Assembly (NCBI GenBank): GCA_023667045.1
Contig: JAMPAU010000011.1
Span: 1 to 58,213 of the forward strand
DNA: 58,213 bases
Reading direction: 5' to 3'
Source: Ruminococcus flavefaciens
GTDB taxonomy: Bacteria > Bacillota > Clostridia > Oscillospirales > Ruminococcaceae
A program made the position numbers and the translations under genes. A model generated the notes under the pieces. That model had not been told where the DNA came from. It searched no databases and saw only the letters and a program-made list of their open reading frames with translations. Below, piece after piece: positions 42,211-51,146 of this stretch (positions within the stretch are counted from its first letter, which is position 1; the number at the start of each line of letters is the position of its first letter).

Positions 42211-42933
42211 ATGAATAAAAAATTTCTTTCAGCAAACACTTTGAAATATATTGCGGTCATTGCAATGACGATTGACCACGTTGCTTTTGTGTTTGTTTCT
42301 CCGGACAGTCCGCTTTATTTTATAATGCGTTTCATCGGACGACTTACAGCTCCGATAATGAGTTTTTTTATTGCGGAGGGTTTTACTCACACAAGGAATT
42401 TTAAAAAATATTTTTTCAGAATGTTAGCATTTGCGATAATCTCACAACCGTTTTATTTCGTCATGATTTTCCGACGAACTCCGCAAAATACAGCGGAATT
42501 TATCATGAATTTAAATGTCATGTTCAATTTCTGCATAAGTCTGATAATGCTGAAAATTGTTTCCGGAAAATTACGTACTGAAAAGAAAATATTAATTTGC
42601 GGAATTTGTTTCATGTTCTCCGATTTGTGCGATTGGTCGATTGTAATTCCGGCTTGGGTACTGATATTTTTCTTTTTCAGAAACAGTAAATTCAGAACGG
42701 CGTTGTTCATCGGTGTGAGTGTCGTTCTGGTTACGCTGAAATATCTTCCGATGTATAACAGCTTTTTGGAATTTTCATACCAATATGGTGTGATTCTGGC
42801 AACGGTTCTGATTGCTCTGTATAATGGCAAACGTCCTGAAAAACATATCAAAATAAACCGTTGGTTTTTTTATGTGTATTATCCGCTTCACATTGCGATT
42901 TTAGAAATATTGTTTTTCATAATAATTAAATAA
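42211..42933 (+). CDS. traX: TraX family membrane protein
   Basis: A 240-residue polytopic protein with the TraX signature at its N-terminus (LKYIAVIAMTIDHVAFVF) and in the middle (MRFIGRLTAPIMSFFIAEGFTHTRN). About seven to eight membrane helices. In F-like plasmids TraX acetylates pilin; in Firmicutes ICEs its substrate is unknown. Start: ATG 42211 after a weak site (AAAGTCGGTGAC). Within the coding region at 42667-42680 the DNA again contains TTTTTCTTTTTCAG. Confidence 0.92.
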   Translation: MNKKFLSANTLKYIAVIAMTIDHVAFVFVSPDSPLYFIMRFIGRLTAPIMSFFIAEGFTHTRNFKKYFFRMLAFAIISQPFYFVMIFRRTPQNTAEFIMNLNVMFNFCISLIMLKIVSGKLRTEKKILICGICFMFSDLCDWSIVIPAWVLIFFFFRNSKFRTALFIGVSVVLVTLKYLPMYNSFLEFSYQYGVILATVLIALYNGKRPEKHIKINRWFFYVYYPLHIAILEILFFIIIK

Positions 42934-42974
42934 TAAATATACTATAAAATTAGGAAAAAATTACAGAAAAACTC

Positions 42975-43003
42975 TTGACAAATGCCGTCAAATATGATAA
43001 AAT
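42975..43003 (+). promoter_or_regulatory. sigma-A-type promoter of the RNA leader
   Basis: TTGACA (42975-42980) and TAAAAT (42998-43003) with 17 bases between. The expected start near 43010 is the first base of the first hairpin. Two direct repeats, TAATAAAGTTGATA (43004-43017) and TAATAAAATTGATA (43022-43035), at the start could be an operator. Confidence 0.75.
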
Positions 43004-43009
43004 TAATAA

Positions 43010-43361
43010 AGTTGATAAAACTAATAAAATTGATATTTTGTCAACAAGCAACTTGAAAATTGAATAGTTAGTCACGTCGTGGAGTATTATAAATTGACTG
43101 TGCATTGAAAACCTCCGAAAACACAACTCGGAGTGGTACTGCTCGGCTTTTATGAATATGGCTTCCGCTGAATAGAGAACGAAAAGCGGACTTGGTGAAA
43201 ATCCTTGTGAGGACGATTGGGAAAATCGGCTGAAAAGTTTCATGTTTCGGAACATGATAAGGCGTGCATGGAAAAACTTTGAAAATTATCGGCAGGACTT
43301 CGGTTCTGCCGTGTGATAACGTTTCCGGAAGTGCATGAGCTTGCGGAAATGACCATACATT
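43010..43361 (+). ncRNA. structured RNA leader with at least eight hairpins upstream of the rpn gene
   Basis: The stretch between traX and the nuclease gene has no reading frame but a series of stems: GTTGATAAAA/TTTTGTCAAC (43011-43045), CTCCGA/TCGGAG (43113-43133), TCCGCT/AGCGGA (43164-43190), TCCT/AGGA (43202-43213), CGATT/AATCG (43214-43228), TCATGTT/AACATGA (43240-43257), CGGCAGGAC/GTTCTGCCG with a TTCG loop (43290-43311), CGTTTCCG/CGGAAATG (43320-43351) with GTGCATGAGC in its loop. The last two recur at 44233-44301. It has its own promoter and ends directly at the ribosome site of the rpn gene. A cis-regulatory leader or a stable RNA are both possible; no Rfam class is recognised. Confidence 0.7.
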
Positions 43362-43381
43362 TATAAAGGAGTGTGACCCCG

Positions 43382-44200
43382 ATGATACAGGAAGAAACAT
43401 CAAAAACCAAACATAAATTAAAAGACAGCGTTTTTGTAGACCTGTTTGAAAATGCGGAAAATGTTCTGCGTTTGTACAAGGAACTTCACCCAGAGGACGA
43501 AAATGTAACAGTTGATGACATTAAAATACAGACAATAAAATCTGTTCTTGTAAACACGCTGTATAACGACTTGGGATTTATTGTAAAAGACAAGTTTGTA
43601 ATGCTTGTTGAGGCACAGAGTGCATGGAATCCGAATATCACATTAAGACTGTTTTTCTATCTGGCAGAAACGTACCGTCGTTATCTTGCGGAAACAATAC
43701 AGAGTGAGCATTCTTCTTCAAAGGTGAAAATTCCAAAACCGGATTTATATGTAGTATACAGCGGTGAAAGAAAGTGTCCTGAAGTAATATCGTTCAGCGA
43801 GACATTTTTTGGTGGCGAATCACCTGTTGAGTTGAAAGTAAGAGTTTTAACCGAAGTCGATATGACCATTCACGGACAGTATATAGGCTTCTGTAAAGTT
43901 TTCAACGAACAAAGAAAAATTCATAAAAACAGCATTGAATGTGCAAAAGAAACAATTCGTATCAGCATGGAAAAAGGTTATCTTGTTTCATATCTTCAGG
44001 AGCATGAAAAGGAGGTTGTGGATATGATGTCAGAATTATTTGATGAGGAATATCAGCGTGCAGCTTATAACCGTGCAAGCAACAAGGAAGCAATAGAAAT
44101 CGGCAGAGCAGAGGGTAAAGCAGAAAGAGAGACAGAATTAGTTGAAAAAATGAGGGCAAAGGGCTATTCAGAACAGGAAATAGCAGAAATTCTCAGCTGA
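43382..44200 (+). CDS. Rpn/PD-(D/E)XK nuclease-family protein
   Basis: A 272-residue protein of the Rpn (recombination-promoting nuclease, YhgA-like) family with a PD-(D/E)XK fold. The metal site is visible in LYNDLGFIVKDKFVMLVEAQSAWN (Asp, then E-x-Q), near residues 60-83, followed by TLRLFFYLAETYRRY and CPEVISFSETFFGG. The C-terminus is a basic helical tail (GRAEGKAERETELVEKMRAKGYSEQEIAEILS in parts), as in the family. Rpn proteins are toxic DNases with antiphage roles in E. coli. Start: ATG 43382, 10 bases after AAAGGAG; an in-frame GTG at 43373 is too close. It is preceded by the RNA leader and carries an internal start at 44024. Confidence 0.85.
   Translation: MIQEETSKTKHKLKDSVFVDLFENAENVLRLYKELHPEDENVTVDDIKIQTIKSVLVNTLYNDLGFIVKDKFVMLVEAQSAWNPNITLRLFFYLAETYRRYLAETIQSEHSSSKVKIPKPDLYVVYSGERKCPEVISFSETFFGGESPVELKVRVLTEVDMTIHGQYIGFCKVFNEQRKIHKNSIECAKETIRISMEKGYLVSYLQEHEKEVVDMMSELFDEEYQRAAYNRASNKEAIEIGRAEGKAERETELVEKMRAKGYSEQEIAEILS
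44024..44200 (+). CDS. internal in-frame product of the rpn gene (RpnS-like, 58 aa)
   Basis: Inside the nuclease gene, AAAAGGAGG (44007-44015) stands exactly 8 bases before an in-frame ATG (44024), giving a 58-residue protein made of the C-terminal part (MMSELFDEEYQRAAYNRAS at its start). Known: in E. coli, small RpnS proteins are translated from within rpn genes and block the toxic full-length protein. Here the ribosome site is visible but expression is inferred. Confidence 0.6.
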   Translation: MMSELFDEEYQRAAYNRASNKEAIEIGRAEGKAERETELVEKMRAKGYSEQEIAEILS

Positions 44201-44201
44201 A

Positions 44202-44214
44202 TTTTCTTTTTCAG
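44202..44214 (+). repeat. post-stop TTTTCTTTTTCAG motif (after rpn)
   Basis: One base after the TGA; continues ACAAGTAAATAAACAACAAA to the second RNA module. Confidence 0.75.
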
Positions 44215-44232
44215 ACAAGTAAATAAACAACA

Positions 44233-44301
44233 AAAGGCGGTATTTCGATACTGCCTTTATATCGTTTCAAAGGTGCATGAGCCGGAGAAACGCCATACAT
44301 T
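44233..44301 (+). ncRNA. second copy of the two-hairpin RNA module
   Basis: AAAGGCGGTAT/ATACTGCCTTT (44233-44258) with a TTCG loop, then CGTTTC/GAAACG (44263-44292) with GTGCATGAGC (44273-44282) in its loop, then CCATACATT (44293-44301). The order, loops and end match 43290-43361, while stems differ but still pair (CGTTTCCG/CGGAAATG there). It lies just before the small gene of the recombinase operon and may also end rpn transcripts. Confidence 0.7.
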
Positions 44302-44333
44302 ACAGACAGCATTACATGAAAAGGAGGCGTATT

Positions 44334-44540
44334 ATGGAGAGCGACTTTAGCCGATTTATCAAGTTAAAGGACATCTGCGAAGTTGAAATTTCACAAGAAT
44401 TGTGTCCGGCTGAAAAGAAAAGAGAGTACATCAGGCAGACCGGCAGCAGCACAAACCACAAGGTTGGTGATGTTGAGGTGGAATGTGTTTACGGCAGCAT
44501 GAAGCTCGAAAAAATGCTTGCGGATATAATCTGCGAATAA
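44334..44540 (+). CDS. small protein preceding the recombinases (DUF6870-like)
   Basis: 68 residues, acidic (FIKLKDICEVEISQELCPAEKKREYIRQTGS, in parts, and VGDVEVECVYGSMKLEKMLADII). It resembles small proteins found in front of serine recombinase clusters, where an opening about conserved D-I-x-E-V, a P-x-x-x-K-x-x-Y/F-x-x-Q segment and a final coil occur; the family name is tentative. Start: ATG 44334 after AAAGGAGG. Probably co-transcribed with the three recombinases, perhaps as a directionality or regulatory factor (inference). Confidence 0.55.
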   Translation: MESDFSRFIKLKDICEVEISQELCPAEKKREYIRQTGSSTNHKVGDVEVECVYGSMKLEKMLADIICE

Positions 44541-44598
44541 GTGTAATGCCTGCATATTCCTTGTGCTTTGGTGGTACGAATTTACAAGGAGTATTGAT

Positions 44599-46155
44599 AT
44601 GGACAAAATATACAAAACTGCAATTTATCTCAGGCTCTCACGTGATGAGGAGGGCGAAAAAGAAAGTTTGAGTATTTCAAATCAGCGTGAAATGCTTATG
44701 AGTTTTCTGAAAAGCAGGGACGATTTGGATTTTACGGCTGAATACTCTGACGACGGCTACAGCGGTTATGATTTTGACCGTCCGGATTTTCAGCGAATGA
44801 TAGAAAGTGCGAAAAACGGCGAAATTGACTGCATTGTGGTTAAAGATTTTTCACGTCTGGGACGTAATTTTCAGAAAACAGAAGAATTTATGCAGCGTAT
44901 TTTTCCGAAAATGGGAATACGCTTTATTTCTGTAAACGACTTTTACGACAGTAATCGTGAAATGTCATCAAGCGAACGTCTTGCGAATCCGATAATCAAT
45001 CTGATGAATGAATATCACGTCATGGAAACGTCGCAGAAAGTGCGTAACGTTCTGGAACATTATCGTCAGAACGGAAAATTTATCGGAAATCGCACGGTTT
45101 ACGGTTACATAATTAAGGATAAACAGCTTGAAGTTGACCCTGAAGCAGCTAAAATTGTGCGAATGATTTTTGACCTAAAAATTGACGGAATGAATCATCA
45201 GGCAATTGCTGATTATCTGAATGAAATGGATATAAATTGTCCGTTGGAATACAAAATCGAAAACGGAATAAAAACTATTTCTACACATTTCAGAACCGGT
45301 GAAAAAGCTGTGTGGTCGCCCGTATCTGTTCGCCGAATACTCGAAAATCCGGTATATATTGGCACTTTGATACAAGGAAAAACTACATCTTTAAGTTACC
45401 GTGACCGCCGACGTTTCAAAAAAGACCCGTCAGAATTGATTGCATTTGAAAATGCCCATGAAGCGATAATTTCCGAAACTGCTTTTTTAATAGTACAGGA
45501 TTTGTTGAAAAAAGATACTTGTAGTGGCAGAAATGTTAATAAAGTTTACTGCTTTTCAGGATTTTGTTATTGTGGAAATTGCGGAAAAACCATGTATCGC
45601 TATCAAAGAAATAAAACAGATATATTATGGATATGTATGAATAAAGCGTGTCAAAGTAAAAGTCGGATAAAAGAATCAATTCTTTCAGAAGTTATTTTTG
45701 AAACTCTGAAAAAACATATGGAAGTAATTCTGAACAACTCCGAACCTGTGATTAAGTCCGATTTTATGCAGAATATTAACATTACAAGTCTGGAACTGCA
45801 AGAACTTGAAAAGCAGTCTGAACAGTTGAAAAAATCGCAGAAAAATCTTTTATTGCAGAAAGAAAATGGTATGATTTCCGAAAATGATTACAAGGAAATG
45901 AATGAATTTTATGCCAATAAAATTGCAAAAAATGAATTTGAATGTGAAGAAATCCGCAATCAGAAAATGCGACTTCTGGAATGTGCTGATGAAATAAAAA
46001 ATCAGTATGAAAAGTATTTTTCGTCGCCGGAACTTACACGTCGCATGGTTGTAACTTTTATTGAAAAAATTGAAGTTTTCAAAAAAAGTAAGATTAAAAT
46101 TTATTTCAGATATGAAGATATTTTCAGAACGGACGGTGACGCAAATGGCACGTAA
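44599..46155 (+). CDS. large serine recombinase 1
   Basis: Site-specific recombinase of 518 residues. The catalytic domain has AIYLRLSRDEEG (nucleophile Ser near residue 12), the conserved YSDDGYSGYDFDRPDF and the VKDFSRLGRNF box (Arg near residues 84-88). A recombinase domain and a zinc ribbon (CYCGNCGKTMY, then CMNKACQSK) follow, then a coiled coil. Start: ATG 44599 after AAGGAG (44586-44591). The gene overlaps the next by 11 bases. The three adjacent recombinases probably act together in integration and excision. Confidence 0.93.
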   Translation: MDKIYKTAIYLRLSRDEEGEKESLSISNQREMLMSFLKSRDDLDFTAEYSDDGYSGYDFDRPDFQRMIESAKNGEIDCIVVKDFSRLGRNFQKTEEFMQRIFPKMGIRFISVNDFYDSNREMSSSERLANPIINLMNEYHVMETSQKVRNVLEHYRQNGKFIGNRTVYGYIIKDKQLEVDPEAAKIVRMIFDLKIDGMNHQAIADYLNEMDINCPLEYKIENGIKTISTHFRTGEKAVWSPVSVRRILENPVYIGTLIQGKTTSLSYRDRRRFKKDPSELIAFENAHEAIISETAFLIVQDLLKKDTCSGRNVNKVYCFSGFCYCGNCGKTMYRYQRNKTDILWICMNKACQSKSRIKESILSEVIFETLKKHMEVILNNSEPVIKSDFMQNINITSLELQELEKQSEQLKKSQKNLLLQKENGMISENDYKEMNEFYANKIAKNEFECEEIRNQKMRLLECADEIKNQYEKYFSSPELTRRMVVTFIEKIEVFKKSKIKIYFRYEDIFRTDGDANGT

Positions 46156-47335
46156 GTCAAGAAAAAATCTCACTGAAAAAATAAATTTCAAAGTCTATAA
46201 AACAGCGATATATGCACGTTTATCAAAGGAAAATCAAAACGGCGAAAAAATTGAAACTCAGATTGAGGAAATCAAAAATTACATAGAAAATCGCCGGATT
46301 TTTGAACTTGTTGACGTTTATGCAGACAACGGCTACAGCGGTACGAATTTCCAAAGACCTGAATTTGAAAGGCTTATGGAGGATATTCGTAACCGTAAAA
46401 TTGACTGCATAATTGTCCGTGATTTGAGCCGTTTTGCCCGTGAACATATCGGTGCGGAAGATTATCTGAATAATATTTTTCCGTTTCTTGGAGTGCGATT
46501 TATAGCCATAAACGACGGTTATGACAATCTGAATATCGAACCGCAGGAATATTTTATGACGGCTTTTAAAAATCTTGCCCATGAATATTTTGCACGTGAA
46601 ACGTCACGAAAAGTCGGAATGGCTCAGAAAGAACTTCAGAAGCAAGGAAAATTTGTCGGTTCTAATCCAGCTTTTGGCTATTTGTGTGACCCGAATGATA
46701 AACATAAACTCGTGATAAATGAGGAAGAAGCCGTAATTATTCGTGAAATTTTTCAAAAAGCAGCTGACGGCGAAACAATATATCAGATTGCAAATGACCT
46801 TATTCGGCGTGAAATCAAGGGTTGTGCGTGGAGAGATTCACGGATAAGTGCCATTCTGAAAAAAGAAATTTATAAGGGAACTTTGGTACAACATCAGACT
46901 GAAACATCTTTTTACAACGACGAAAAAAGGCATAAAATAGCCGAAAATGAACAGATTAAAATTGAAAATGCTGTACCGGCAATTGTGAGTACTGAATTGT
47001 GGGAAAAAGCAAATGCTGTTGTTACTGAAAGAGAAGCAGAACGTCATAGAAATTCTCCGGAAAATCCATACAAAAACCTTGCGTTTTGCGGAAAATGCGG
47101 TAAAAAACTTATATGTGGGTTTACTAAAAAACGTGGCGATTTTGAATTGAACTGCACAAAATGCAAAAGTGGAATTTTTGTCAGAGGCAAGGCAATAAAT
47201 GAAGCAGTGCGTAATCACCTTGAATTGCCTGAAAATTCAGAAATAACAAAGAATTTGCTAAATGAAAAATTTGAAAAAATTCTTGTTTTTGAAAAGAAAA
47301 ATATCGTTCTGGTTGACAGAGGTGATTCAGAATGA
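46145..47335 (+). CDS. large serine recombinase 2 (short form)
   Basis: 396 residues. Catalytic domain with AIYARLSKENQNG (Ser near residue 26), VYADNGYSGTNFQRPEF and IVRDLSRFAREH; zinc ribbon (FCGKCGKKLICG, then CTKCKSG). It lacks the long coiled coil of the other two and ends soon after the zinc ribbon, so its site binding or subunit pairing probably differs. Start: ATG 46145, within the end of recombinase 1. No strong ribosome site, hence translational coupling. The stop overlaps the next start (ATGA). Confidence 0.9.
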   Translation: MARKSRKNLTEKINFKVYKTAIYARLSKENQNGEKIETQIEEIKNYIENRRIFELVDVYADNGYSGTNFQRPEFERLMEDIRNRKIDCIIVRDLSRFAREHIGAEDYLNNIFPFLGVRFIAINDGYDNLNIEPQEYFMTAFKNLAHEYFARETSRKVGMAQKELQKQGKFVGSNPAFGYLCDPNDKHKLVINEEEAVIIREIFQKAADGETIYQIANDLIRREIKGCAWRDSRISAILKKEIYKGTLVQHQTETSFYNDEKRHKIAENEQIKIENAVPAIVSTELWEKANAVVTEREAERHRNSPENPYKNLAFCGKCGKKLICGFTKKRGDFELNCTKCKSGIFVRGKAINEAVRNHLELPENSEITKNLLNEKFEKILVFEKKNIVLVDRGDSE

Positions 47336-48789
47336 CAATTGCCTGTTATGCTCGAAAATCAAACGAATTGAAAAATGACAGCATTGAAAACCAACTTTCA
47401 ATAATCAAAGATTACATAAGTCATCATCAGGATTTACAGAGTGCGGAAATTCTGCAATTTTCGGACAATGGTGCAAGCGGTCTTGACCTGAACCGTGACG
47501 CATTTCAGGAGCTGTTAGCCAAAATCAGACAGCGTGAAATTGACGTTGTAATTGTAAAAGATTTGTCACGTCTCGGAAGAAATTATCTTGATGTCTGCAA
47601 ACTCACGGACAGTATTTTTCCGTTCATGAAAGTGCGTTTAATTGCGATTTCTGAAAATTACAACAGCAAATACAAAAAAATAAATTCTATGGATTTGTCG
47701 GCTGCATTCAAGTCTGTTCTGAATGAATATTACGCTTTGGAAACTTCCGAAAAAATACGAAATTCATACAGACAGCGTATAAAAAATGGCGAATTTACGG
47801 GCAGTATTGCATACGGATATTTTCTGAAAGACCGATACACAGCCGTAATTGATGAAGAAAAAGCCGAAGTAGTACGCAAAATATTCAGTCTGTATCTTGA
47901 AAAGAAAAGATACATTGATGTTGTGAAATTTCTGAATGAAAATCAAATTTTACCGCCGTCCTCCAGAACTTCAAAATGGATTTCTGGCACTGTGAGAGGA
48001 ATTTTAAAAAATGAGCAGTATATCGGAAAACGTGTTTCGCTTACCCATTATAAAGACCTGAAAACAAAGAAAAAAATTCCAAATGACAGAAGTGAATGGT
48101 ACGTCAACGAAAACGCATTTCCCCCGATTATAAGCCGTGAAACATTTGAAAAGGTTCAGGAAATTTTACCGAAAAGCAGAAAAGTAAATATGTCAGAAAG
48201 TCATATTATGTCACGGAAAATTTATTGTGCCGTCTGCGGTAAATCATTGTACAAAAACAGAAATTTTTATTGCAGAAATAGTTGCCGGACTGGTGAAAAG
48301 CCTTGTTTTCAAGGTTCACTTAAATGTGAAGTTTTGTATAAAGACGTTCTTGAAAAAGTGAAAGAATTTATTTCATCGGATATTCCGGACGGCAGATTAC
48401 AATTTTCTTTTTCAGATATAGCAAAAATTGAGGCTGAAATTACTTTGCTGAAAGAAAAAAAGGCAGAAATTTTTGAACAGCTTTTTAGTGAAAACATAAA
48501 TCAAGAGGAATTTGAAAAACAAAATTCCAACGTTTCATCACAAATTGCTGAAAAGCAGAATGAACTGAAAATTTGTCGTAAAGCTGTTGCTCTGAATACG
48601 AAGTATGGTTCAGAACGTCCGCTTGATACACTGAAACGTCTTTATGCTTCTGATGAGCTTACTAGAGAACATATGCAGTTTGTAAAACGTATCAATGTGT
48701 TTGATTCAGAACACTTTGAAATAATCATGCAGCCGGATAGTCCGCTGGCTGTTTTGTGTAAAAATATGGACATTTATGAGGAGGTGTGA
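47332..48789 (+). CDS. large serine recombinase 3
   Basis: 485 residues. Catalytic domain with ACYARKSNELK (Ser near residue 10), FSDNGASGLDLNRDAF, and IVKDLSRLGRNYLD; recombinase domain (RGILKNEQYIGKRVS), zinc-ribbon-like segment (YCAVCGKSLYKN, then CRNSCRTGEKPC) and a coiled coil (IEAEITLLKEKKAEIFEQL). Start: ATG 47332 with overlap ATGA. Together with the two preceding genes it forms the integrase set of the element, at its expected right end. Confidence 0.93.
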   Translation: MTIACYARKSNELKNDSIENQLSIIKDYISHHQDLQSAEILQFSDNGASGLDLNRDAFQELLAKIRQREIDVVIVKDLSRLGRNYLDVCKLTDSIFPFMKVRLIAISENYNSKYKKINSMDLSAAFKSVLNEYYALETSEKIRNSYRQRIKNGEFTGSIAYGYFLKDRYTAVIDEEKAEVVRKIFSLYLEKKRYIDVVKFLNENQILPPSSRTSKWISGTVRGILKNEQYIGKRVSLTHYKDLKTKKKIPNDRSEWYVNENAFPPIISRETFEKVQEILPKSRKVNMSESHIMSRKIYCAVCGKSLYKNRNFYCRNSCRTGEKPCFQGSLKCEVLYKDVLEKVKEFISSDIPDGRLQFSFSDIAKIEAEITLLKEKKAEIFEQLFSENINQEEFEKQNSNVSSQIAEKQNELKICRKAVALNTKYGSERPLDTLKRLYASDELTREHMQFVKRINVFDSEHFEIIMQPDSPLAVLCKNMDIYEEV

Positions 48790-49276: not shown

Positions 49277-49590
49277 TATTTGAAAAAACTATTGACATTA
49301 TCCTTGCACGCTAAAAGCATAGTACAGTGGTCGCCGTCGTCGATTATGTAGACTTTAGCCATTACAGGTTCAAGCATGGTCGGGAGCAGGTACTCCATTT
49401 TGTATTCGGGCTGTTCTGCTGTATGCTGAATAACCTGTATTCCGTTCATGTTGCTGAGTCTGAACACCTGTAAGTAGTCTTTCGGTTCGAGCATTCTGTC
49501 AACGCACTGCCACATAAAAAGCTGTACATCAAAAGGAATTTCAGAATCAATTCCTCTTGTGATATATCTCGGTTTATCCTTTTCAAACAT
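49267..49590 (-). CDS. DUF960 family protein
   Basis: A 107-residue protein with the family pattern: RYITRGIDSEIPFDVQLFMWQCVD, DYLQVFRLS, VIQHTAEQPEYKMEY and the C-terminal KVYIIDDGDHCTMLL. In family members the protein usually ends soon after M-L-L-A; here about 13 more residues (CKDNVNSFFKYYW) run into the inverted repeat, and the TAG is formed inside it. Start: ATG 49590, overlapping the stop of the upstream recombinase gene as TAATG. Function unknown; often carried by ICEs and phages. Confidence 0.85.
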   Translation of the reverse strand: MFEKDKPRYITRGIDSEIPFDVQLFMWQCVDRMLEPKDYLQVFRLSNMNGIQVIQHTAEQPEYKMEYLLPTMLEPVMAKVYIIDDGDHCTMLLACKDNVNSFFKYYW

Positions 49591-51146
49591 TATTTTTTCT
49601 CCTCTCTGATTCTCGACTTGAATAACCCATAGAGTTCTCCTCGTCTGATTTTCACGATTGCGTTTATTTTGTCGGCTATGCCAAGTCCTGTATTGATTTC
49701 AATTTCAAGATGATATGGGTATACAGTAATTTTTTTGACATAGTTTTGTATGAAAGTTCTGAACTTCTCAGTATTTCTTTCAAGCTGTCTGAATTCGTCT
49801 ATTACAGGCAAAAAGTCGCTGTATTCTATCAAATAAAGCTGATGAATTTCTGAAAGTTTTATTTCAATTTCAGCACGTTTCTGCTCCAGTTCTTCGGCAC
49901 GATTTATCAGACTTTCAGTTATAATTCCTTTCTCAACCGCCTTTGTAATGTTGTTAAGATTTGCCTGTATTTCGTCGTATTCAGCTTTTACACTTTCATA
50001 GTTTGTATCATAATCACTGTTATACTGTCGGATATATGTATTGACGTTATTGACAAGATGTTTCAGAGAAGTTGCGTTAAAAATCTTCTTTCTCAGCAAC
50101 TCGACAATGTAAACATCAAGGTAATCCTTGTTGATTTCCTTGTTTTTGCACTCTGAACGGTGCGTATTACAGCGATATGTCACAAGTCGTGTTTTACTTC
50201 TGCCCGAAAATCTGAGGTTTCCCTGCATACGTTTACCGCATATTCCACAGAAAATTTTACCAGTAAACAAGTAAAATTCTTTATTGTGATAACGTCCAGT
50301 GTTGCGTTTATTTGCCGCCTTAATTCTTTGTACTTTTGCAAAAAGTTCTTTGGAAACTATCTGCGGACAACCGTTTTCAATTCTGATAGTATTGTTTGAA
50401 CTTTTACAGGCATGATTATTACGTTTTCCGTCCACTTTAGAAGCAGCTTTATTGAACACAAAAACACCTGTATATTTCTCATTTCTGAGAATTTCATACA
50501 ACGAATTTTTACCGAAAATCTGACCTCTTTTTGTTTTGTAACCGTGTTCGTTCAGATAATTTATAATCGCCATATAGCCGTGACCGTCGGCAAACATCTG
50601 AAAAATTATTTTGACTGCTTCAGCTTCGTGAGGATTTATTATCAGTTTTTTATTTTCGTCAAGGTCGTATCCGAGAGGAGTGCAGCCTCCAGTGTGCTTG
50701 CACTGGAGAGCTGTTTCCTTCATTCCTTTCATAACTTCACGACCAAGATTTTTTGAATAATATTCAGCCATACCTTCAAGGACACTTTCCATCATGATAC
50801 TTTCGGGGCTGTCGTCAATTCTTTCAAGAACACTACACAATTTCACATTATTTTTTTTCAGACGTTTTTTGTAAATTGCACTATCATATCTGTCACGGCT
50901 GAATCTGTCCAGTTTGTGTACAAGAACAATATCGAAAATGCCCTTTGAACTGTCCACTATCATCTGCTGAAATTGTGGGCGATTGTCAGTAGTCGCTGAA
51001 CGTGCCTCGTCTGTGTATGTTGCAACGACCTGCCAATGATTCTGTTTGCAGAATTGATTCATCGCTCTGACCTGAGCATCAATCGACTCGGTACGCTGAT
51101 TGTCGCTTGAAAATCTTGCGTATAATGCGACTTTTTGTATCAGCAT
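49590..51146 (-). CDS. large serine recombinase 4 (minus strand)
   Basis: 518 residues. Catalytic domain with VALYARFSSDNQ (Ser near residues 13-14), YTDEARSATTDNRPQF and LVHKLDRFSRDRYD; recombinase domain (LYEILRNEKYTGVFVF) and zinc ribbon (FCGICGKRMQGN, then CNTHRSECKN), followed by a coiled coil. It is not a close relative of the three plus-strand recombinases: the YTDEARSATTDNRPQF pattern is different. It is probably the integrase of another element or island. Start: ATG 51146 after GAGG, overlapping the previous gene by 7 bases. Confidence 0.92.
   Translation of the reverse strand: MLIQKVALYARFSSDNQRTESIDAQVRAMNQFCKQNHWQVVATYTDEARSATTDNRPQFQQMIVDSSKGIFDIVLVHKLDRFSRDRYDSAIYKKRLKKNNVKLCSVLERIDDSPESIMMESVLEGMAEYYSKNLGREVMKGMKETALQCKHTGGCTPLGYDLDENKKLIINPHEAEAVKIIFQMFADGHGYMAIINYLNEHGYKTKRGQIFGKNSLYEILRNEKYTGVFVFNKAASKVDGKRNNHACKSSNNTIRIENGCPQIVSKELFAKVQRIKAANKRNTGRYHNKEFYLFTGKIFCGICGKRMQGNLRFSGRSKTRLVTYRCNTHRSECKNKEINKDYLDVYIVELLRKKIFNATSLKHLVNNVNTYIRQYNSDYDTNYESVKAEYDEIQANLNNITKAVEKGIITESLINRAEELEQKRAEIEIKLSEIHQLYLIEYSDFLPVIDEFRQLERNTEKFRTFIQNYVKKITVYPYHLEIEINTGLGIADKINAIVKIRRGELYGLFKSRIREEKK

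Follow-up and report, generated by a model that had tools for sequence, protein, structure and literature searches.

To our knowledge, no test of the function of the pemK RNA (Rfam RF02913) has been reported. BoxA elements have been established in E. coli as sites that associate with NusB and ribosomal protein S10, and the leaders targeted by LoaP contain a UNCG hairpin to which it binds (both as given in the consulted sections of PMC12691694). RpnL and RpnS, as presented in the consulted sections of PMC10327210, are genes within genes, in which the C-terminal part of a nuclease is made from an internal start. In this study, we report a structured RNA leader of roughly 300 bases that opens a mobile-element operon in Ruminococcus and probably serves to control the nuclease and recombinase genes of that element. 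The window analysed is a 58,213-nucleotide stretch of Ruminococcus flavefaciens (contig JAMPAU010000011.1), and the features described below lie on its plus strand unless stated otherwise.

When 297 genomes were searched at the DNA level, the leader was recovered at full or nearly full length from the source genome and six congeners (76-84% identity); nine genomes were matched, and G061, G108 and a second G090 row were excluded as matches of 24-31 bases. A pattern scan of contigs gave six contigs (L032-L037), which are the same six relatives and not independent of them. A covariance-model search had been recommended in an earlier note on this DNA, and the model of the leader domain (R2), run against 375 genomes, returned 17 rows in 16 genomes; seven were strong (206-256 bits; the next 27.5) and came only from the seven Ruminococcus leader genomes, while the 10 weak rows were all read and, on inspection, resemble coding sequence or unrelated DNA. 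The Rfam/Infernal search, likewise recommended, matched no family to the leader. At the gathering cut-off there were no matches in the whole window, and hence no riboswitch family, while E-value mode gave four implausible matches for 42930-44620 and a single minus-strand match (E 9) for 43120-43290. No Rfam intron family was credibly matched in either the gathering or the E-value mode, which speaks against a group I or II intron remnant. Plasmid and phage collections gave no DNA matches, and viral contigs gave none by nuclease, pattern or DUF6870. The leader was not recognised among the titles and abstracts listed for boxA and antitermination, Rpn, Ruminococcus RNAs and recombinases, pemK and candidate RNAs, or LoaP.

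Upstream of the leader lie a TraX gene and a long gene which we take to be a relaxase. On this side of the leader in L034, the gene before TraX is reduced to its tail and large genes on the other strand precede it, an arrangement that suggests a rearranged element. The earlier note had given the leader its own promoter, and a sigma-70-type sequence, TTGACA-17-TAAAAT, is present at 42975..43003 (11/12 match, with TG ahead of the second hexamer). The promoter scan returned 11 sites against 5.2 expected, so that the match alone is weak; the promoter is readable in four of the six relatives (G090, G076, G091 and G106), differs in G122, and falls where the contig is cut in G086. Downstream of the leader are an Rpn-like nuclease gene (43382..44200), a 68-aa DUF6870 gene (44334..44540; PF21757, 25.1 bits against a cut-off of 24.4) and three serine recombinase genes (44599..48789). 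A fourth serine recombinase gene lies on the opposite strand (49590-51146). Since the scan found no plus-strand promoter-like site between 43541 and 44581, the nuclease, DUF6870 and recombinase genes are likely to form one operon, despite the terminator-like score given in the same scan to one hairpin between them, the first hairpin in the second copy of a module described below. The ribosome site of the first recombinase is covered by a hairpin (44553..44595) with a fold z of -1.90, equalled by 8 of 200 shuffles. This hairpin is nearly invariant among seven sequences, with one mismatch, in L033, and is a possible translation lock on recombinase 1.

The family scores of the nuclease were weak, at 17.3 of the 52.1 bits required for TIGR01784 and 14.4 of 21 bits for Transposase_31 (PF04754), and the protein had no PADLOC match and no convincing solved relative. 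An internal AAAAGGAGG followed by an ATG at 44024 (44003-44026) is kept in all five genes of the Rpn type, one of which contains N letters. Translation from this site would give a possible 58-aa, RpnS-like C-terminal product (44024..44200), as in RpnL/RpnS pairs. The 13 bases of the internal site recur in the DUF6870 ribosome site at 44315.

The leader starts with a boxA-like element, CTTGAAAATTGAATA, at 43052..43066; CTTGAAAAYTGAATA occurs at seven exact sites in the source genome, against none in a reversed control. In the rRNA leader of the congener G034, AGCATCTTGAAAATTGAACAA lies 186 bases before the 16S start and agrees with the window's AGCAACTTGAAAATTGAATAG at 18 of 21 bases; the 16S gene was located by its conserved opening string, and two other loose matches in that stretch were unrelated. 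This comparison was made with one congener only because the source assembly contains no 23S gene. The sequence thus points to a boxA-type leader, a feature absent from the earlier reading, and by analogy with E. coli the element may function via NusB and S10 in Ruminococcus. Four of the seven exact boxA-like sites (L003, L073, L076 and L077) lie directly behind apparent tyrosine integrase genes, as judged by eye. Another site, L075 (G000:C28:718-732, minus strand), leads with its downstream sequence a third kind of structured-looking leader, which had no Rfam match.

At least eight stems had been claimed for the leader, and the consensus fold of the seven leaders indeed comprises eight helices, with 71 pairs and 95.7% of cells paired. 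Both partners are changed in 11 pairs, where shuffles average 5.3 and one in 500 reached 11; the sequences are related and come from seven genomes of one genus, so the changes are few and the counts overstate independent events. Further pair types were not above shuffles (349/500), and the fold of a single sequence exceeded chance by a moderate margin only (z -1.72; 5/100 shuffles). A domain at 43072..43268 is closed by the long-range stem P1 (43072-43078 with 43261-43268), which begins five bases after the boxA-like element and covaries in two alignments (A4 and A5). Helices P2 and P3 occupy 43087..43155, with three changed pairs in P3, and are followed by P4 (43165..43190), by P5 (43191..43207), in which two pairs are changed on both sides in relatives and which is imperfect in the window copy (two U.U cells), and by P6 (43240..43257), which is 100% paired and has no pair with both bases changed. 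Individual pair-preserving changes fall in separate helices, namely P1 in L036 (G-C to A-U), P2 in L035 (A-U to G-C) and P4 in L032 (U-A to C-G). Such compensatory changes, together with conservation in six other genomes, support the view that this is a selected RNA. Two further candidates were set aside: a leader peptide, as the seven-codon reading frame at 43152-43175 has no Shine-Dalgarno sequence in range by eye and its frame continues in L036, and a T-box likeness of GUGGUAC, for which Rfam gave no match.

One contig with another copy of the boxA-like element bears a pemK RNA. The source genome contains three pemK RNAs over the cut-off, one of which precedes a DUF6870 and a serine recombinase gene, and 31 of the 149 related genomes searched contained pemK matches. 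A boxA-like element lies upstream in 27 of the 32 pemK loci read (L080-L118), at a cut of at least 11 of 15 bases that was set after viewing the loci; L101, L103, L107 (contig cut), L108 and L115 fall below it. Within up to 1.5 kb, these 32 loci have MazF-like genes in 10 cases, serine recombinases in 10, ParA in 6 and DUF6870 in 2, while 12 loci have none of them, as counted by regular expression, which undercounts them (by eye, L081 and L094 also look MazF-like and L080 has a recombinase). Fifteen of the 32 loci, all with boxA, were prepared for alignment and 13 were aligned (A8; L104 and L114 were omitted). Outside the 61-position Rfam model, these 13 leaders have a closing stem P1 in which 85.4% of cells pair and 8/8 pairs change on both sides, the stem having been placed by eye before counting and the changed-pair number alone being reached by 77 of 500 shuffles. 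Its covariation score was 0.857; shuffles gave 0.282, and sliding the stem gave no more than 0.228. The spacing from boxA to P1 is 3-5 bases in the pemK leaders and 5 in all seven window-type leaders, with spans of 201-269 and 178-199 bases, respectively. The extended pemK-type plan as defined here, a boxA-like start followed after 3-5 bases by P1, is thus common to the pemK leaders and the window leader.

The likeness does not extend to the cores. RF02913 (gathering cut-off 34.8) gave no match to the leader. When the AUAAUGAUACUUCCG segment followed by the GGUGAAAUUCC hairpin was sought in the seven leaders, the combined score was reached by 83, 11, 5, 27, 64, 17 and 2 of 200 shuffles; the second of these pemK segments alone was reached by 3-10 of 200 in four of the seven. 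Profile comparison gave a best E of 2.4, with neither profile finding the other, and R2 found 0 of 40 sources at E 10. Sequence homology of the leader and pemK cores is therefore unsupported by the model, profile, two-segment and covariance-model tests.

The main reading, to which we give a probability of roughly 55%, is that of a structured 5' leader acting in cis at the head of one mobile-element operon, combining boxA antitermination, modulation by P1 and an operator shared between two genes. Transcription would start near 43010, and boxA, about 40 bases downstream, would recruit NusB and ribosomal protein S10 to RNA polymerase and thereby render it termination-resistant, following the established rrn mechanism. 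The P1-closed domain, directly after boxA, may set or modulate this antitermination step. Once boxA and the P1 domain had formed, within about 260 bases, the modified polymerase would transcribe about 5.8 kb. A two-hairpin module, present twice, would be the shared operator for a protein or other trans factor and would tune translation of the nuclease and DUF6870 jointly, while the ribosome site of recombinase 1 would stay masked by the hairpin over it until some additional signal, a putative trigger, arrived. In such a leader, a mobile element of gut bacteria that couples a toxin-like nuclease with the element's recombinases would have an RNA control system that is defined and open to testing.

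The two copies of this module lie at 43290..43351 and 44235..44292. The recurrence of the last two hairpins, noticed earlier, was clear on alignment of 43290-43361 with 44235-44301: the local score was 51, and the highest of 2000 shuffles reached 29. The 10-mer GTGCATGAGC, with one mismatch allowed, is not significant alone (4 matches; 20/100 shuffles). The earlier note had put the second copy before the recombinase operon; the repeat stands, but the gene that follows this copy is that of DUF6870, and only then come the recombinases. Pairing of the second stem was said to be kept despite base changes, and this holds in 13 module copies from seven genomes, where one C-G is U-A in six copies and two G-C pairs are A-U in two copies and in one. 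For the 13 copies, the covariation score was 0.313 against 0.175 in shuffles (0/500) and at most 0.074 when slid, and 21 cells were changed on both sides against 9.7 (0/500); pairs changed on both sides (5; 163/500) and pair types (19; 192/500) were not above shuffles. Identity is 82% within position 1 and 88% within position 2, against 66% between positions, which suggests that the duplication predates the genomes compared. A search of 125 genomes with the module gave 27 rows in 19 genomes, of which 14 in eight genomes were strong (at least 65 bits), G026 having copy 2 only, at a contig edge; the 13 weak rows scored 21.7-27.1 bits, and one of them, L046, was read. The module precedes both genes in every contig containing both places (L034 ends ahead of copy 2), and it sits 16 bases before the nuclease ribosome site and 30 before that of DUF6870. 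Judged from this arrangement, joint control of the nuclease and the recombinases, by one module before the nuclease and another before DUF6870 and the recombinases, is plausible.

These positions, kept in the six relatives as far as the contigs reach, would also suit a leader that is a translational operator and nothing else, with an element-encoded protein, such as DUF6870 or the C-terminal part of the nuclease, binding the leader and modules and repressing both starts, and with boxA incidental. A TA-like nuclease with an internal start fits such a scheme as well. The P1 domain and the pemK-like placement of boxA are left unexplained by it, however, and we regard it as unlikely, though worth serious attention.

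Conservation of the leader was compared with that of the genes in 10 leader pairs. Leader columns 27-128, 201-240 and 287-352 are 74-96% identical, and the nuclease four-fold sites, at 45-81%, fall below these conserved columns in each of the 10 pairs. Columns 129-200 vary widely (60-94%), and the whole leader, at 77-91%, is about equal to nuclease DNA overall (77-89%). Four-fold sites of DUF6870 are 67-100% conserved, on few sites (15-18 per pair). Between L037 and L032, leader windows are 91-98% identical, the stretch 300-949 bases past the core is 34-46% identical, and identity from 1150 on is 93-100%. In L032 the place of the Rpn-like nuclease of the other genomes is taken by a PF12784 nuclease, which passes TIGR01784 at 128.7 bits, although the leader and the downstream DNA on either side are almost identical in this pair; the two kinds of nuclease share a similar C-terminal tail. 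Because the nuclease has been swapped behind a near-identical leader, the RNA goes with the operon and not with one nuclease.

The occurrence of a near-identical leader before two different nucleases also argues against a trans-acting RNA, in which the leader would be cut free and would guide or inhibit the nuclease or recombinases. A large conserved RNA adjoining nuclease and recombinase genes, matched by no known cis family, could suggest such a role, but the scan found no plus-strand terminator-like site between leader and nuclease and no variable guide-like stretch was recognised in the leader, which makes it decidedly improbable. Exchange of the nuclease between the two module copies in L032 and L037 might instead reflect a function in DNA, with the copies as boundaries or homology arms for cassette exchange; yet the copies differ consistently by position, their pairing is kept through changed bases, which points to RNA, and similarity begins returning at the nuclease tail and not at copy 2, so we give this little credence. 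A LoaP-type mechanism, in which termination would be prevented by a NusG paralogue bound to the UUCG hairpin as LoaP is to UNCG hairpins (consulted sections of PMC12691694), is scarcely credible, for although both window copies have a UUCG loop and the genome has two NusG/LoaP-like genes, several relatives do not have the UNCG form of the loop, neither gene is over the LoaP cut-off, and the LoaP search also matches in 13 of 14 control genomes.

The cis-acting leader with boxA, P1 and a shared module can be set beside the known systems. With the LoaP-controlled dfn and mln leaders it has in common a hairpin in a long leader, with a UUCG loop in the window copies; it differs from them in its unconserved loop and in a genome with no LoaP over the cut-off. 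The nuclease-like gene resembles RpnL/RpnS in that a ribosome site and start within the gene could serve its C-terminal part, whereas the window protein is below the Rpn cut-offs and leader RNA is not a topic of the consulted sections of that report (PMC10327210). The boxA-like element is close to that of the G034 rRNA operon over its 21 bases, but is followed by the P1 domain and a protein-coding operon and not by rRNA. Unlike the pemK RNA, the leader gains no score from the pemK model and has no recognisable AUAAUGAUACUUCCG segment; like the extended pemK RNA, it precedes toxin-like, DUF6870 or recombinase genes. No counterpart of the repeated module was noticed in the pemK RNAs. On these sequences, the best reading is a lineage-specific relative or analogue of the pemK-type leaders. 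The comparison suggests in turn that the pemK RNA is part of a longer boxA-initiated domain, which would offer a possible function for a widespread orphan RNA. Tentatively, the pemK RNAs and the leader may belong to one large, unrecognised class of mobile-element leaders, in which boxA and a P1 domain, through a terminator-resistant polymerase, gate toxin or nuclease and recombinase genes jointly; we hold this to be possible rather than probable, and if it is correct, the Rfam pemK model describes only the 3' core of the real RNA.
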